A stretch of 64,000 nucleotides of DNA, taken from Lentisphaera profundi. GTDB lineage: Bacteria; Verrucomicrobiota; Lentisphaeria; Lentisphaerales; Lentisphaeraceae. Below, in pieces: positions 3,105 to 59,725 of the stretch. The position numbers and the translations under genes are program-made. The DNA is taken from NCBI RefSeq assembly GCF_028728065.1, contig NZ_CP117812.1, positions 1,426,001 to 1,490,000 on the forward strand. Reading direction: 5' to 3'. The notes under the pieces were generated by a model. The model was not told where the DNA came from. It worked only from the letters and a program-made list of their open reading frames with translations, and did not search any database. Numbering within the stretch: the stretch's first letter is position 1; each line of letters starts with the position of its first letter.

Positions 3105-5846
3105 ATGAAAACCACTTTACCTAGTCATTTATATTTAATTACTGAGCTTGCGACAACGTATGCTTTATATAAATTATTTAATAAACCAAAAGATGTGCTA
3201 TCTGCCTTTGCTAAAGGCTCCGAGTCATTTTCGGCAGTTAATTTACGCAGAGAATCTTTAAATAATGCATTAAATTTTAATTCTCTAGAAGAAGCTAAAA
3301 AAAGCGATGACTTAATAGACTTATCCAATATTCTAAGCGCGTATGGCAACGACTTTATAGATATTAACGGATCACAAATTTTCTTTAAGCAAAGCGATCG
3401 AGATGAAGCTCAAACAATTTCTTTACAATTACACCCGTTCCTTCTGGCGACAGGAAAAACCCATACCTTGTTAAACAAAAATAAAATCACTATACAAGAT
3501 TTAATCTGTTTTGCTAAAATGATACGTCCAGGTTTACTATCGAAAGATAATCCTCATAAAACTTATGCAGATAACCATATTCACCTTAATGGCTGTCATG
3601 ATGCAGGTACTTTTATACTTGAAATATGTAATCAAAGTTTTCTTGATACAGGAAATAGTTTACGAAACACCCCTCTCTTGGTTGGCTCAAACTTAAAACC
3701 CTCACTAGAACTTGAACAAGCTATTCATATTTTACGCTATTCATTTAACCTTATTAATCAGGGGTTGATTCAAGAATTAAACATAAATCCAAAACCACAA
3801 TCTGTAGATAATTTTACTTGTATCAAAAATATTATTAATCATCCAGAAAGGGATCACAGTACCTCGCGAATACGCTCATGGAAAGATAATCATTTTCTGA
3901 TGAAAAACCAGAGTAATTCAGCTTCTGATACGATTCAAATATTATTCAAGGCGGTGCATTATTATCATGGGAAAAACCCCGTAGCAAGCTTATTTTTATA
4001 TTATAATTTTCTACTTAGTTTTGATCACGAATTAAAAAACTCTACTCGTTCCAATTCAGTTCAGTGTCGCATGGCTATACGATCTTTTATAATTAGTGCT
4101 AACATAATAAGACGTCACCTTGTGATGTCATCACAAGCAGGTTTGAGTCATTTTACAGATTTCTTTTCTAGTTCAGTTAAAAACTTACCTCAGGAAAAGT
4201 GGGATTATGATCTGCATGCTTATCATAATGTAGCATTAATGGCAGGACAATATAATACACTCAAAGTTTCCCCTAGTACTTTTAATAGTTCTAATTTGAA
4301 ACAACATTTGGCAAAATACCTAAAAGTAACATTGGATCATAAGAGATCTAACCCTCTTCTTGAAAAGCTGTGCCACCAGACTAGAATTGGACAGGAGGAC
4401 CAAAAGAAATATTCACCTTATGAAGACTTCGTCATCAATTATGTTATTCATTTTATCAAAAAATCAGACAGACGAAAACGTAAATATATATCTGGACAGA
4501 TCTCTGATTATAGACATTTACATTTACGTAATAGTATTAAAAAACAAAGTCTCAAACTCGACCGTTTTCTCTGTGATCCGAAATCTCAAAAGAGTGATCT
4601 TTTACAAGTTCTTATCCAAGACAAGTCGTGGTGTAAAAAGGATCTTTGGCAAAATAAAGATATTTACAAAAAACAAAAAATTGATTTAAGCCAATTTCTT
4701 GTAGGTATAGATGCCGCGGGTAATGAGTGCGATACACCACCTGAAGTATTTGCGCCTTCTATACGCTTTCTCCGTACTCAACCTAAATCATTCAAAACAA
4801 AGTCTTTTTCACAAGGATTAAAGCATCATTCTAAACTTAGAATATCTATGCACGCGGGTGAGGACTTTAATCATATTGTTACAGGATTGAGAAGAATAGA
4901 TGAATGTGTGAAGTTTTGTGAGATGGGTAAGCATGATCGTTTAGGTCATGCTCTTGCATTAGGTATAAACCCAAAAAAATGGCTTTTACAGCAACAAGAA
5001 GTACTTATTAGTCAAGAAGAGTATTTTGATAATTTAGTCTGGTTATGGGGGCTTTGTGGTGAAATGTCCAGATCCTATCCACCTGCACTATCTTTTCGCA
5101 ATCATTATGAAAATGAAATCTTTCGTTTGAAGGAAAGCTTATATCCGAATGCGCCCACAACATGCAGTCTATCTAATAATTATGGCGGCCCCCAAAGGTT
5201 ACCCCAAGATTTTTATCGTGCTTGGGAGTTGCGTAAGAATTGCCCTAGTTATTTCTTTCATGCTAGTGAATCTTTATCCAACTCAGATATCATAGCTTCC
5301 TTCAGTCCAGATAAGAATCTATGTGATACAGCAACAAGTATCTATAGAGAGTATCACTATGGAGATCTTTCCGATCGAAAAACAGTACTGAGCTTTCGAT
5401 TTAGTGCATCTACAAAAAAGCCTTTAAGGAAAAAATATTTATTAGTATCCGAAGATGAACTTTCTTTATATGAAGCAATTCAAGATTATCTAATAAGTAA
5501 AACTGAAGAAAATGGATTGATTCTAGAATGCTGCCCTTCTTCCAATATCACCATCGCTGGATTTCCTATTGAAAATCATCCGATTTTTCGATGGTTTCCA
5601 CCTAAATTAAATGTCCTAGAAGACAAAGGTGTATTCAATCAATATAATCTACGTAAGAGTCCCATTAATTGTTGTGTGAACACAGATGATCCAGCACTTT
5701 TTTCAACTGATTTAGAGAATGAATTTATTCTGTTAAAAAATGCTGCCATAGAATTCCATGGCTGTAGTGAATATGAAGCAGAATCTTGGATAGAACTAAT
5801 CAGAGAAAATGGACTAAATATATTTAAACGAGATATGATTCGTTGA
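3105..5846 (+). CDS. rdrB: RADAR adenosine deaminase RdrB
   Basis: A 913-residue protein with every key element of the adenosine deaminase metal site: HxH in NHIHLNG (His158, His160), the MHAGED motif (His583, catalytic Glu586), RLGHAL (His615) and NTDDPA (Asp861-Asp862). Ordinary adenosine deaminases are about 350 residues. The large insert between the first and second motifs (about residues 165-575) is typical of RdrB, which forms a hollow multi-subunit shell. RADAR deaminates adenosine to inosine, reported on RNA and on ATP/dATP pools, during phage infection. The gene starts 7 bases after the rdrA stop, so the two are one operon. With all catalytic residues present the enzyme should be active. 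Confidence 0.92.
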   Translation: MKTTLPSHLYLITELATTYALYKLFNKPKDVLSAFAKGSESFSAVNLRRESLNNALNFNSLEEAKKSDDLIDLSNILSAYGNDFIDINGSQIFFKQSDRDEAQTISLQLHPFLLATGKTHTLLNKNKITIQDLICFAKMIRPGLLSKDNPHKTYADNHIHLNGCHDAGTFILEICNQSFLDTGNSLRNTPLLVGSNLKPSLELEQAIHILRYSFNLINQGLIQELNINPKPQSVDNFTCIKNIINHPERDHSTSRIRSWKDNHFLMKNQSNSASDTIQILFKAVHYYHGKNPVASLFLYYNFLLSFDHELKNSTRSNSVQCRMAIRSFIISANIIRRHLVMSSQAGLSHFTDFFSSSVKNLPQEKWDYDLHAYHNVALMAGQYNTLKVSPSTFNSSNLKQHLAKYLKVTLDHKRSNPLLEKLCHQTRIGQEDQKKYSPYEDFVINYVIHFIKKSDRRKRKYISGQISDYRHLHLRNSIKKQSLKLDRFLCDPKSQKSDLLQVLIQDKSWCKKDLWQNKDIYKKQKIDLSQFLVGIDAAGNECDTPPEVFAPSIRFLRTQPKSFKTKSFSQGLKHHSKLRISMHAGEDFNHIVTGLRRIDECVKFCEMGKHDRLGHALALGINPKKWLLQQQEVLISQEEYFDNLVWLWGLCGEMSRSYPPALSFRNHYENEIFRLKESLYPNAPTTCSLSNNYGGPQRLPQDFYRAWELRKNCPSYFFHASESLSNSDIIASFSPDKNLCDTATSIYREYHYGDLSDRKTVLSFRFSASTKKPLRKKYLLVSEDELSLYEAIQDYLISKTEENGLILECCPSSNITIAGFPIENHPIFRWFPPKLNVLEDKGVFNQYNLRKSPINCCVNTDDPALFSTDLENEFILLKNAAIEFHGCSEYEAESWIELIRENGLNIFKRDMIR

Positions 5847-5997
5847 TTTCAATATGTCATATTCCTATATAGATTTCCGTGTCGTAATATCTAGAATTAA
5901 TCTCATTTAAAACAATGACCCTATACTGAACTAATATGTACAAAGCTTCGAACCCAACGAACTTTTTTAGTGATGATTATCGTCTGGAAGAATGAGC

Positions 5998-8310
5998 TCA
6001 AGAACTAATATTAAAAGCTTTAACTTCACCCATGAGTAGGTCTTCGAGGGCTATGCACCTTGGCTTCTTACTAGCTCGTTCCAGTTTTTTTATAAGTGCT
6101 TCATCTAACTTGATACTTACTTTATTTTCGAAGTCTAATTCATAAACATAATACTGCGCTGCACTCGGCTTAGGATACTTCATCTCATATAGTTCTTGCT
6201 TCGTTACTAAACGCGGTGCCTGACTCTTGATCTTATGTAGTTGCATTCCGTGGTCTTCATTCCATAACAGAGCGTACTTTGCTCCTGCCATTTGAGCTGA
6301 GTAACATTCATTATCACGAATGTTATAGAGTGCATGTTCTTGAATCCACTCTTCTTGCTTCTCTTGATAATAACCCACTAGTACGTAGGGCTTCTGATCA
6401 CTGGCCGGAGCTACACGCTCCACTTTCTTTTTATCTTCTTTCTCACAGTGATACTCAAGAGTCTCAGGTATATCCTCACACACTTCAGGTCCCGAATTAT
6501 CTTTATGAATATGGTAAGTCTGGTAACTCTTTCGTTCATATTGACTACAGCGATTACTGACATGACTAATGACTTCACCGAGGAACTTCTGAATAGCAGG
6601 CGTGCCATCGTCTCCCTGAGGTCGTAAGGGAAAGGCTCCGAGCCCTGGAAGTAACTCGTGATAACCCTGCATGGGTTTAGTATCGTCTGTCCCTGGGTAG
6701 AGGATATACGCGCCAGCCGTTCTGCGAATAGCATCACGATACGCATGCATTTTGAGTAAGTCGGCACGTTTATAAGTTCCTTCACGCTGTTCTTTTTTCT
6801 CTTGGTTCAGCGCTTCTTCATCACTACTCTGCCCAAAGGCATCTTTCAGAAAATCCACTTTGTACTTAGCATCAAAATGAATATGAGAAATCAACTCCTG
6901 AAACTCAGCTTCGTTCTCACCGCGATCATGCTTCGATTCTTTTAAACCCTGAGGCCATAGTGATAAAGTATAATCCGGTCGCATCTGCTTAGTCCATGAG
7001 CCACCATGGGGATAGGCCTTCGCTCCACTAAAGGTACGATTAAAAGAGAAACGAATATTGAGTGCTCGACCCTGCTTATTAAACGTTCCTCCGATATCTA
7101 ATTGCTTTCCCTGCTTAAGCTTCATCGTTAAGCTATGGTTACCTTCTTCGAGGAAAGTCTCTGTAGCTGGTTTTTCTAATTTAAACACATGACATACGAC
7201 ATCTAGCAATTTAAAGAAGCCCCAATACTCATAGAGCGTCGCTACATCTCGTTTACCACCTTTGTATTCATCGTCACCATAAACGTCTTCTCCACCGCTC
7301 CAGCTCAAGCGTGCTGCCAAATCAAACTGTAGCCAGGCACGTAGTATCTGGCGATAACCTTCTTTATTTTGTAGAACTGAGCTCGAAAGAGCCAAGACTT
7401 GAGGTCGTTCAACCTCCTTAAAAAAACCTTCGCTCAATACCTCTTCAAAATAGTTTAAGAGTGAATGCACTTCTTCGGTGAGGCCCGGGTAGCGCAAGGA
7501 TTCATTCTTTTTCTGTAATGATTCCAACTTGGATAAAATATCTTCTAGCGTTAGGCTAAATACCGTCAGCGCATGTTTGATAAAACGGTTTTCTTGGGTA
7601 TCCACGCTATCGCGTTTATCACGTACCTCTATAACTTCAGGCAAAGAGCCTAAAGACTGTAGTGAGTGACCTGCAGGAACATGTTGCCGACGACGAGCAG
7701 AGGCCACCTGACGCATCTCAAAACGTCCCAAGCGTGAACAGCTCGCGAGTGGACGTTCACGTAGCTCCTCCATCCAGCGCGTATTTGGATTGCTAATGAC
7801 TCGATGTACCGCATCACAAAAATCATCACTACCCACTAGAGATTTAAGGAAATAAAGACGCTGGACCAAGGTAGCTTCATCATTGCAATCATCCGGATTA
7901 TAACTTTGCTCAACCGGTGAATCCAACTGAACAAGTAAATCCGTGCAGTACTCGGTAATATCACCCAGCATCGTCTGATACTCAGTTTGGTAATCAATCT
8001 TTGTAGACTGAACATCTACATGAGTCAGGGCTAACTCCACACCAGACTTATCGAGTAGAGTCAACTTGAGTAAACCCACAAATATACCTGGTTCAATCAG
8101 TCCCCGATTTGTCGTCGAGCGACTTGGTCTAATGACGCCGCTCTGGGGTTTTAGCCTATAGGATTTCGGCAACTCATACTCATAGCGCCTTCCCTCAATT
8201 AACTGAAGGGCTTGCGAGTCATCAAAAACATCATCATTGAGTGCAAATATTTTACACTCAATCAGATTCTTATTTGCCGTCTGAAATCGTATGGTTCCAA
8301 AGGAACTCAT
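5998..8310 (-). CDS. McrC-like DUF2357 / PD-(D/E)XK nuclease subunit
   Basis: This 770-residue protein has a DUF2357-like N-terminal and middle region and a PD-(D/E)XK nuclease core: RPDYTL at about residue 445, FDAKYK at about 480, then a helix with MHAYRDAI, which is characteristic of McrC-type nucleases. It starts 2 bases after the stop of the McrB-like gene, so they are translationally linked. Together they form a McrBC-type, modification-dependent (type IV) restriction complex: the AAA+ motor translocates and this subunit cuts. The C-terminal about 150 residues are not recognised. The gene faces the RADAR operon tail to tail, with about 150 bases between the stops. Confidence 0.82.
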   Translation of the reverse strand: MSSFGTIRFQTANKNLIECKIFALNDDVFDDSQALQLIEGRRYEYELPKSYRLKPQSGVIRPSRSTTNRGLIEPGIFVGLLKLTLLDKSGVELALTHVDVQSTKIDYQTEYQTMLGDITEYCTDLLVQLDSPVEQSYNPDDCNDEATLVQRLYFLKSLVGSDDFCDAVHRVISNPNTRWMEELRERPLASCSRLGRFEMRQVASARRRQHVPAGHSLQSLGSLPEVIEVRDKRDSVDTQENRFIKHALTVFSLTLEDILSKLESLQKKNESLRYPGLTEEVHSLLNYFEEVLSEGFFKEVERPQVLALSSSVLQNKEGYRQILRAWLQFDLAARLSWSGGEDVYGDDEYKGGKRDVATLYEYWGFFKLLDVVCHVFKLEKPATETFLEEGNHSLTMKLKQGKQLDIGGTFNKQGRALNIRFSFNRTFSGAKAYPHGGSWTKQMRPDYTLSLWPQGLKESKHDRGENEAEFQELISHIHFDAKYKVDFLKDAFGQSSDEEALNQEKKEQREGTYKRADLLKMHAYRDAIRRTAGAYILYPGTDDTKPMQGYHELLPGLGAFPLRPQGDDGTPAIQKFLGEVISHVSNRCSQYERKSYQTYHIHKDNSGPEVCEDIPETLEYHCEKEDKKKVERVAPASDQKPYVLVGYYQEKQEEWIQEHALYNIRDNECYSAQMAGAKYALLWNEDHGMQLHKIKSQAPRLVTKQELYEMKYPKPSAAQYYVYELDFENKVSIKLDEALIKKLERASKKPRCIALEDLLMGEVKAFNISS

Positions 8311-40850: not shown

Positions 40851-43343
40851 TTAGAGTAAGGCTTTATTTAAACTCATTTTTTCGCCCTTCTTCAGATTCA
40901 AGCTTACTTTTTTACCTTTATAAGTCACGACACAGGGATTTCCATTTTTTGAGAGAATCGAAACATCTAGCAAGCTAGCTTTTTCCCATTTCATTGAAAT
41001 CTCAAATCCACCGCGAGCCACGAGTCCGCTGATCATGCCCTGGTCCCAGGCTTTAGGCAGTGCAGGAAGAAGCTTGATCTCACCCGTATGACTTTGGAGA
41101 AGCATTTCTGCAATAGCACCTGGATAACCGTAATTAGCATCATTCACTAAACCCTGACTTCCCATGCCATTAGGGTTGAATGCACCACAGCCACGTACTT
41201 TTTTACTAGGGTGCATCGAGCGACTTAGGCTATTGATCCAATAAAGAGCTTTATCACCCAAGCCGAAACGAGAGTAGAAATTGACATAGTAGATATTACT
41301 CCAGGGAACAATTCTTCCACTGCGATTCGTATCGGTACGAATGTCCAAAGTTTTCTTACCTGCCTCCATCATTTTTGGAGCGTTATCTACATGAAACTGA
41401 TTACCTGGAAACATGGCCCACATATGTGAGATATGACGGTGGTCGGGCTCTGATGAGATGTAATCTTTACTCCATTCCATAATTGTACCATCGGCACCAA
41501 TTTTCGTGGGAGCGAGTTGCTCACGCTTAGCTTTAACTTCAGCTACAATTTCATCATTGATACCCAAAACTTCGGAAGCCTCTAGAAAGTCGGTAAAGAG
41601 TTGATGAACAATTTGTTGACTCATTGCACTACCCATATCTTCATGTCCCCAGCGACGGTTCTTACGATCCTCTTCGGTAATTGCATAAGCTGTTTCAGGA
41701 GAATAATCAGGACCTGCAACTAGCTTGCCATTACGTGGATCTTTTACCAACCAATCAAGTGACCACAAAACATGATCCTTTATGATATCATAACTGTAAT
41801 TTTCTAAATAGTCTTTATCTTGACCAAAGCGGTAGTGTTCCATAATATGCGTCGCATCCCAAGGTCCAGCCATTCCCCACATTGCCCGCGGTGGTTCAGG
41901 TGGATAAGCAGTCAAATAACCACCATGACAGAGTGCAATATAGACTCCGCGACTGCCAAACATTTCTTTAGCCACTCGGCTACCACGTTTTCTCATGACC
42001 TTCAAGGAATCAAATAAGGGAGTGTGACATTCACTCATATTAGTCACTTCCGCCGACCAATAAGACATCTCAATATTGATATCATGGTGATAATCAGAGT
42101 TCCAAGCGGCTTTCAGATCTGAACTCCAAATGCCACGTAGATTGACCCACATTGAACCTGGTCGTGACGAGGTGATTAATAAGTAGCGACCCATGTGAAA
42201 CATCTGACTTATGAAGTAATGATCATATTCGTTTTCACCAAGCTCTTTGGCTGCTCGAATGCGGACATCGAGTGGAATATCATTTTTTCCTTCGGCTCCG
42301 AGGCGTATATCAACGCGGCCAAAAATATTGTTATGAGCCTTTACTGCTCCCGTAAATGCACCATCCCAAGTTCGATCATTAACATCGTTTAAAAGTGATT
42401 TACATTTTTTGCTTAAGTCTTCTGCTAAAGGTTCAAAAGGCTTATCAATATTATAGTTAGTCGTTCCCGAGATCCATACCGTCATATCAGACGTATTCGT
42501 CACCGCGAGGATGCCATTTTCAGATTTGCTTGAGCCATCAGCGACTTTGACTTGAGCAATTGATTCGTAACTTGTTGAATACTTGGATTCATCATAGCCA
42601 TGTGCCTTACCTGAGATAGAAATACTATTAGGACCACATGATTCGATTTTAGGAATCTGATGATCAAAGTAACTCGGGCGAAAGAGATTCATTTTTGCTG
42701 AAAATTTAGCACCGCCAATGGCTCTCATGCGAATGCCGATCACATCTTTATCATTGACCACAAAAACTTGACGTTCAAACTTTGTTTCGCCGATCTCAAA
42801 GTACGTTGTCGTAACTCCCGTTTCCATATCGAGACTACGTGAATATTTCTTAACAGATCCTTTCTCTAACTTACTAGCAAAGTCATACTCAAAATGTAAT
42901 TCTGCAAAAGGCTGATATGAACCAACATCATATTTCTTTTGAACCTTTTTCGCAATAAGATCATGGGCTTCAGGAGCTTTACCATCAAAGATCAATTGAC
43001 GCACTTGGCTAATTTCTTTTTCTCTATTCGGGTATGCCTTTTCGAACTCCGCTGGATCTAAACTTGGTGGTGACCATAAGGTATCGTGATTAAATTGTAC
43101 CACATCTTTAGTTAAACCACCAAAATCCATCGCTCCAAAACTACCATTTCCCAATGGCAGAGCTTCGATCCAGTTCAATGCTGGATACTGAAACCAAAGT
43201 GTGGTGGCTTTTTCAAAAACTGGCTGGTACTTGGCAAAAACAAAGCGCCCTGGATAAGCCTCTTTTAATGTGGTCGTGGTCTTTGGGCGGGGTTTAATTT
43301 TATCATAATAAGGTAGCCAAATCTCTAGATACTTTGCGTGCAC
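40851..43343 (-). CDS. Glycoside hydrolase family 95 (alpha-fucosidase/galactosidase type), lacking its own signal peptide
   Basis: An 830-residue GH95-like enzyme: N-terminal ALPLGNGSFGAMDFG and FNHDTLWSP, a catalytic-barrel segment HHDINIEMSYWSAE, and a C-terminal beta domain. In characterised alpha-1,2-fucosidases two Asn (N-x-N) sit in the NINLQMNYW-like motif; here the first is Asp (DIN), so specificity may differ. The listed start is a GTG, but the frame is open upstream to the preceding ORF's end (KKLEKTKAYQTVIKE...YKAVHAKYLE), and no signal peptide is present in it. The upstream ORF supplies one, which suggests a single gene read through a -1 frame change. Confidence 0.85.
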   Translation of the reverse strand: MHAKYLEIWLPYYDKIKPRPKTTTTLKEAYPGRFVFAKYQPVFEKATTLWFQYPALNWIEALPLGNGSFGAMDFGGLTKDVVQFNHDTLWSPPSLDPAEFEKAYPNREKEISQVRQLIFDGKAPEAHDLIAKKVQKKYDVGSYQPFAELHFEYDFASKLEKGSVKKYSRSLDMETGVTTTYFEIGETKFERQVFVVNDKDVIGIRMRAIGGAKFSAKMNLFRPSYFDHQIPKIESCGPNSISISGKAHGYDESKYSTSYESIAQVKVADGSSKSENGILAVTNTSDMTVWISGTTNYNIDKPFEPLAEDLSKKCKSLLNDVNDRTWDGAFTGAVKAHNNIFGRVDIRLGAEGKNDIPLDVRIRAAKELGENEYDHYFISQMFHMGRYLLITSSRPGSMWVNLRGIWSSDLKAAWNSDYHHDINIEMSYWSAEVTNMSECHTPLFDSLKVMRKRGSRVAKEMFGSRGVYIALCHGGYLTAYPPEPPRAMWGMAGPWDATHIMEHYRFGQDKDYLENYSYDIIKDHVLWSLDWLVKDPRNGKLVAGPDYSPETAYAITEEDRKNRRWGHEDMGSAMSQQIVHQLFTDFLEASEVLGINDEIVAEVKAKREQLAPTKIGADGTIMEWSKDYISSEPDHRHISHMWAMFPGNQFHVDNAPKMMEAGKKTLDIRTDTNRSGRIVPWSNIYYVNFYSRFGLGDKALYWINSLSRSMHPSKKVRGCGAFNPNGMGSQGLVNDANYGYPGAIAEMLLQSHTGEIKLLPALPKAWDQGMISGLVARGGFEISMKWEKASLLDVSILSKNGNPCVVTYKGKKVSLNLKKGEKMSLNKALL

Positions 43344-43441
43344 TGCTTTATATTTAGGATCTACGCTCTGTAAATACTCGCGGATTTTTTCATCCTGAGC
43401 TTTACGCTCTTTAATGACTGTTTGATAAGCCTTTGTTTTCT

Positions 43442-43705
43442 CTAATTTTTTATAATACCGATTCTTTCCGCTTGCGCGATACCACCTTTAATACCAGCAT
43501 CCTTCTGCATCTTTTGAAATTTGTGATTATGAGCTATTAAAACCTTAAATAGTTTTTTATACTCTCCATCTTTTTTGAACTGTTCTTTCGAAAGCCGATA
43601 AGCCGCCTCTGATTTATCACGGGCTTCTTTGAGCCCTTTCGGCTGTGCAGCATATACGGCACTACTAATAACGATCAGTAATAGGTAAATGGTTTTTTTA
43701 ATCAT
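43442..43705 (-). CDS. Signal-peptide ORF, probable N-terminus of the GH95 gene
   Basis: An 87-codon ORF: signal peptide MIKKTIYLLLIVISSAVYAAQ, then a charged helical stretch (SKEQFKKDGEYKKLFKVL) ending in KN and TAG. The last codons are ATA AAA AAT, an A_AAA_AAT slippery heptamer in the correct phase (minus strand 43451-43445). A -1 slip there continues into the open GH95 frame (LEKTKAYQTVIKE). The simplest reading is one exported GH95 protein of about 950 residues, made by frameshifting, or broken by a one-base change in the A6 run. Confidence 0.6.
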   Translation of the reverse strand: MIKKTIYLLLIVISSAVYAAQPKGLKEARDKSEAAYRLSKEQFKKDGEYKKLFKVLIAHNHKFQKMQKDAGIKGGIAQAERIGIIKN

Positions 43706-58921: not shown

Positions 58922-59725
58922 CTAGTTTAGGCTTTTACCTGTAGCTTTAGTTTGGCTAAAAAGCCAAGGAATTAATTCTGCTGTATTCCATGCTGGTTTT
59001 GATGAACCATGACCCACTCCTGGGAATTCGGTGTAAATCCAATTTTCATTCCCAAGCGCTTTCATTTTTTTATCCATTTGCCTAGATGCCGAAAAAGGAA
59101 CTACGGTATCTTTATCACCATGAAAACACCAAATAGGTAGGTGAGCAAGGTTTTGTGCTTGACTCAAATCACCAGCGCCACAAACGGGAATAGCCGCAGC
59201 AAATAAATGCGGACGTCGCATAATGATATCCCAAGTGCCATACCCTCCCATAGATTGTCCCGTTGCGTAAATTCGATTTCCGTCAATCGCAAATTCTTCT
59301 CGTACAGATTCAATAATTTCTAGTACTAAAGCAATAGGCTCAGAGATTTCTACTTTATCAATAGAGTAAGTACCTTTGCCCCATGGAGTGTTTGCCCATT
59401 GTTTCTTGGAAGGACACTGAGGTGTAATAATAAAAGCTGGATACTTTTTACGGATAGCGGGATCCGATAAAAATGTAAAGGCATCAATGGCACGACTTTT
59501 ATTGTCTGTACCTCGACCCCAGGCACCGTGAAGTGCCACAATGAGTGGGTACTGTTTTTCAGGATCATAATTATCTGGTTTCACTATCCTGTAAGGAAGC
59601 GATCCTATTTCACTTTTAAATACACGAGCTTCAATTATTGCGTCGTCCGCAAAGCTGCCTAATGAGATGCAAGATAATAGCGCTAAGATAAAAACCTTAT
59701 TAAGGCAGTTATATATATGTTTCAT
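58922..59725 (-). CDS. Exported prolyl-oligopeptidase-like esterase
   Basis: A 267-residue secreted alpha/beta-hydrolase: signal peptide (FILALLSCISLGSFA), PLIVALHGAWGRG for the oxyanion hole, nucleophile elbow GQSMGGYGTWD, Asp in FHGDKDTVVPFS, and His in GVGHGSSKPAW. This is the fold of CE1-like or polyhydroxybutyrate-depolymerase-like esterases found in polysaccharide loci. It may cut ester decorations. The shared promoter module is 88 bases upstream. Confidence 0.85.
   Translation of the reverse strand: MKHIYNCLNKVFILALLSCISLGSFADDAIIEARVFKSEIGSLPYRIVKPDNYDPEKQYPLIVALHGAWGRGTDNKSRAIDAFTFLSDPAIRKKYPAFIITPQCPSKKQWANTPWGKGTYSIDKVEISEPIALVLEIIESVREEFAIDGNRIYATGQSMGGYGTWDIIMRRPHLFAAAIPVCGAGDLSQAQNLAHLPIWCFHGDKDTVVPFSASRQMDKKMKALGNENWIYTEFPGVGHGSSKPAWNTAELIPWLFSQTKATGKSLN

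Follow-up and report, generated by a model that had tools for sequence, protein, structure and literature searches.

A glycoside hydrolase gene of family GH95 in Lentisphaera profundi is split in the genome assembly into a short open reading frame (ORF) carrying the signal peptide and a long ORF carrying the enzyme, with the second lying in the -1 frame relative to the first. Most likely (with a probability of about 0.86), this split is due to a one-base indel within a non-conserved spacer, either as a recent real mutation or as an assembly error. We prefer such an indel over recoding, since the frame change is an isolated one, while homologues of the gene are continuous in the relatives L042 and L070. 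Unless labelled otherwise, positions below refer to the window, the stretch of 64,000 nucleotides that was analysed (positions 1,426,001 to 1,490,000 of contig NZ_CP117812.1); the GH95 gene and its parts lie on its minus strand.

Layout of the split gene

The 0-frame ORF (43442..43705) starts with ATG, comprises 87 codons, and encodes the signal peptide plus the first part of a lysine-rich spacer. Its protein begins MIKKTIYLLLIVISSAVYAAQPK, of which MIKKTIYLLLIVISSAVYA was judged by eye to be the signal peptide, and a Pfam search with this ORF gave no match. The 3' end of the ORF reads ATT ATA AAA AAT TAG, with the TAG at positions 43444-43442. Read in the -1 frame, the GH95 ORF extends to position 40851 and is closed upstream by a TAA at 43490-43488. 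The two frames therefore overlap only in 43487-43445, and this zone, in which both are open, is bound to hold the frame change, as indicated by the TAA and by the change-point profile described below. The first ATG, GTG or TTG of the GH95 frame is a GTG at 43343, 98 nucleotides past the TAG, from which an intact frame of 830 amino acids runs (40851..43343; assigned by Pfam, PDB relatives and L042). The remainder of the lysine-rich spacer lies ahead of this GTG in the -1 frame (43344..43487), as codon statistics indicate.

A preliminary description of this locus had separated the signal-peptide ORF from the GH95 frame; its coordinates were right, and the split is present in the assembly. It had also noted an A_AAA_AAT heptamer just before the stop codon in the exact phase for -1 slippage, which we found at 43451-43445, containing a run of six A and directly abutting the TAG. 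Its statement that the GH95 frame is open through this region applies from 43487 on, but not farther upstream because of the TAA.

Codon statistics and the position of the break

For the codon model, 359 long ORFs served as the training set; they came from 864 kb of the organism's own genome, sampled as stretches. The log-likelihood ratio in favour of coding was +23.9 nats for the 0 frame ahead of the TAG (the 87-codon ORF) and +12.4 nats for the stretch from the TAG to the GTG at 43343, read in the -1 frame. As coding is backed on both sides of the break, the signal-peptide and GH95 pieces were very probably one gene formerly.

The same evidence bears on another explanation, that the locus comprises two separate genes, one for a small secreted peptide and one for a GH95 enzyme whose translation begins internally, at GTG 43343 or at a rare start codon, and which is normally not exported. 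A start at this GTG would retain the entire GH95 core. However, coding signal in the -1 frame is present well ahead of it, close relatives carry the signal peptide directly on GH95, and no clear ribosome-binding site was seen ahead of the GTG when the sequence was read by eye. Two separate genes are thus very unlikely, and a single interrupted gene is the reading that we follow.

The codon change-point posterior was about 0.82 for positions 43460-43445, with positions up to 43487 staying possible. A change at the A-run, as proposed in the preliminary description, is consequently plausible, but the exact site is unproven and could be anywhere in 43487-43445. Repeats between the two halves of the spacer, sought in order to place the break by register, did not rise above shuffled sequences (958 of 2000 shuffles reached the score). 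We infer that the two spacer halves were formerly fused; since no copy with the same spacer was found in another strain or species, the argument for an uninterrupted ancestral spacer is the one from codon statistics alone.

The GH95 enzyme and its relatives

The N-terminal, catalytic and C-terminal GH95 models of Pfam were all matched (E values of 1.4e-48, 1.1e-114 and 4.3e-23, respectively), giving the complete three-domain match that is seen in the family (PF14498, PF22124 and PF21307). The match starts at residue 49 of the ORF counted from GTG 43343, and the GH95 body carries no further damage. PDB relatives of this body are 2RDY (BH0842), 4UFC, 8ZBV and 7KMQ. When aligned with BH0842 and with the GH95 enzyme 4UFC, the protein retains the Glu (in MEWS) and the Asp (in VNDANYG) of the catalytic region, whereas in the N-I-N motif an Asp stands at the first Asn position, both here (D-I-N codons at 42078-42086) and in L042. 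The Asn-x-Asn, Glu and Asp residues presumably play the catalytic roles assigned to them in work on a bifidobacterial enzyme. The Asp in place of the first Asn may mark a subgroup with altered catalysis or specificity. Compared with known GH95 enzymes, the protein has an extra lysine-rich spacer ahead of the core, and it is within this spacer that the frame is broken.

In the two closest relatives, one from a Verrucomicrobia MAG (L042, 63% identical) and the other L070 (44% identical), signal peptide and GH95 are encoded in one frame, with the signal peptide followed by a short linker and then by the motif PGRYVFEKHAPAIEKPTTLWF or its counterpart. The comparison with relatives that had been suggested for this locus thus revealed a continuous gene in both, though both are without the spacer. 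Because these nearest relatives are single-frame, a single secreted-enzyme gene is the natural prior state.

The lysine-rich segment, as delimited on the sequence, spans roughly 100 residues (43280-43640) between the signal peptide and the GH95 core and is absent from L042 and L070, so the site of the break has no counterpart in either. No homologues of the spacer were found in the organism's own genome, in six relatives or in viral contigs. With a 296-amino-acid query against 388 genomes of the phylum, relatives aligned only from about residue 65, past the spacer. None of the relatives found has the spacer or the frame overlap, and the slip site is not conserved. By these comparisons, the spacer is lineage-specific and non-conserved.

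The A_AAA_AAT heptamer

Programmed -1 ribosomal frameshifting at A_AAA_AAT would mean that some ribosomes slip before the TAG and yield a secreted GH95 enzyme, while most release the 87-residue peptide. The heptamer is in the exact phase and touches the stop codon, and the change-point profile gives most weight to the last 16 nucleotides ahead of the stop. Moreover, some weak motifs such as A_AAA_AAC serve insertion elements (PMC4066793). However, the identical heptamer occurs in the same slip phase twice more inside the GH95 body (42282..42288 and 40944..40950), where slippage would truncate the enzyme. Codon shuffling of 505 ORFs of the genome gave a mean of 139 A_AAA_AAT sites in slip phase (range 119-164), and the real sequences hold 175, so the genome does not avoid the motif. 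Rarity of a motif in other genes is not a strict criterion for programmed frameshifting; in E. coli, avoidance and efficiency of motifs were not correlated (PMC4066793). By E. coli rules, AAU would count as heterogeneous, and the ribosome of this organism may differ.

The motif alone is not a strong surprise. An in-phase X_XXY_YYZ heptamer (Y = A or T) occurs in about 8% of random 15-codon coding stretches, and a run of six A in 7.6% of random 46-nucleotide coding stretches; as the segment is lysine-rich and A-rich, the chance of an in-phase heptamer here is above this 8%. In addition, a break beside an A-run is to be expected in the absence of recoding, since indels favour homopolymers.

Downstream of the TAG, the first 60 nucleotides fold better than shuffled sequences (z of -3.55; longer stretches, z of -2.0 to -2.2), which we count against the indel, though among pseudoknot-free structures the fold consists only of separate 4-bp hairpins, the first about 14 nucleotides away. 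No Shine-Dalgarno-like or AGGAG-like element was seen by eye just upstream of the heptamer, and neither hairpin folding nor this upstream reading revealed a well-placed stimulator nearby. As in dnaX and the IS1/IS3-family transposases, which use programmed -1 frameshifting, an X_XXY_YYZ heptamer is in phase within overlapping frames. Unlike in these, the site is not conserved, no stimulator of a known type was seen, the heptamer is common in ordinary genes, and the gene is not part of a mobile element. The A_AAA_AAT here is thus not special, and with no support for programmed slippage beyond a common motif, and no relative found sharing the site, we consider it very unlikely. The same low likelihood applies to the notion that the lysine-rich spacer and the heptamer together form a young, species-specific recoding switch, with -1 slippage setting the level of GH95 export. 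Were frameshifting programmed here, the locus would provide a rare example of a bacterial polysaccharide-degrading enzyme whose secretion is under the control of recoding.

Transcriptional slippage, in which RNA polymerase would add or drop bases on the six-A run and thereby restore the frame in some mRNAs, is highly improbable: the run does lie within the frame-change interval, but it is short of the roughly nine or more bases that efficient slippage of this kind usually needs in bacteria, and ten other runs of at least six A in the gene would disrupt it equally.

Other frame transitions and the gene neighbourhood

A scan of 864 kb of the genome flagged seven frame transitions, the GH95 case and six others, and A_AAA_AAT was absent from the overlaps of these six. 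Of the six, two are probably just adjacent genes and two could be read either way, whereas at least two appear to be single carbohydrate-acting enzymes that have been split. One such case is an SASA-type esterase (C2:1754322-1755892), apparently interrupted by a -1 shift in an interval that contains six G. Another is a protein with ThuA-like and 3-keto-disaccharide hydrolase parts (C2:1302424-1304014), seemingly interrupted by a +1 shift. A third candidate, at C2:1147530-1149063, sits at a run of ten A, with an SGNH hydrolase on one side and an esterase on the other. Taken with the GH95 case and the six-G interval, it draws attention to possible assembly indels at homopolymers.

In a survey of 1106 prokaryotic genomes, only 146 clusters with signs of recoding emerged from 206,991 predicted frame transitions, and BLASTp-validated singleton transitions were expected to stem mainly from errors of sequencing and not from indel mutations (PMC3711429). 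The GH95 case resembles the "singleton fs-genes" of GeneTack in that study (PMC3711429) in having a single frame change that no relative shares and an otherwise intact downstream frame.

The GH95 gene is flanked by a sulfatase and two SASA-type esterases, with RraA-like, altronate/galactarate dehydratase, MFS and GH30 genes nearby. This neighbourhood fits a polysaccharide-use cluster. An alpha/beta hydrolase at 58922-59725 is similar to the L042 gene that lies immediately downstream of GH95 (5465-6466), and this likeness suggests that the cluster is common to both.

Discussion

The preliminary description had left a choice between slippage and a recent one-base deletion. An indel is backed by the continuous relatives, whereas slippage has only the common motif in its favour. 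In the sequence of events that we propose, the ancestral gene would have encoded a signal peptide, the lineage-specific lysine-rich spacer and the GH95 core as one secreted glycoside hydrolase. The frame would then have changed by a net one base somewhere in 43445-43487, with the six-A run or its vicinity as the probable place, either through a recent indel that the organism itself acquired or through a homopolymer indel of the assembly. The undamaged GH95 body is what one would expect after a recent event, or if the assembly is wrong, and a functional recoded gene would account for it too.

If the mutation is real, ribosomes that begin at the proper start would terminate after 87 codons, leaving the GH95 core without export; internal initiation, for instance at GTG 43343, could at most supply an unexported core. 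Loss of this gene could be tolerated, as nine other GH95 regions in the genome match much of the core without internal stops. If, instead, the assembly is in error, the gene would simply be intact. In annotation, this GH95 gene should be flagged as frameshifted, and be described neither as a leaderless enzyme starting at GTG 43343 nor as a recoded gene.
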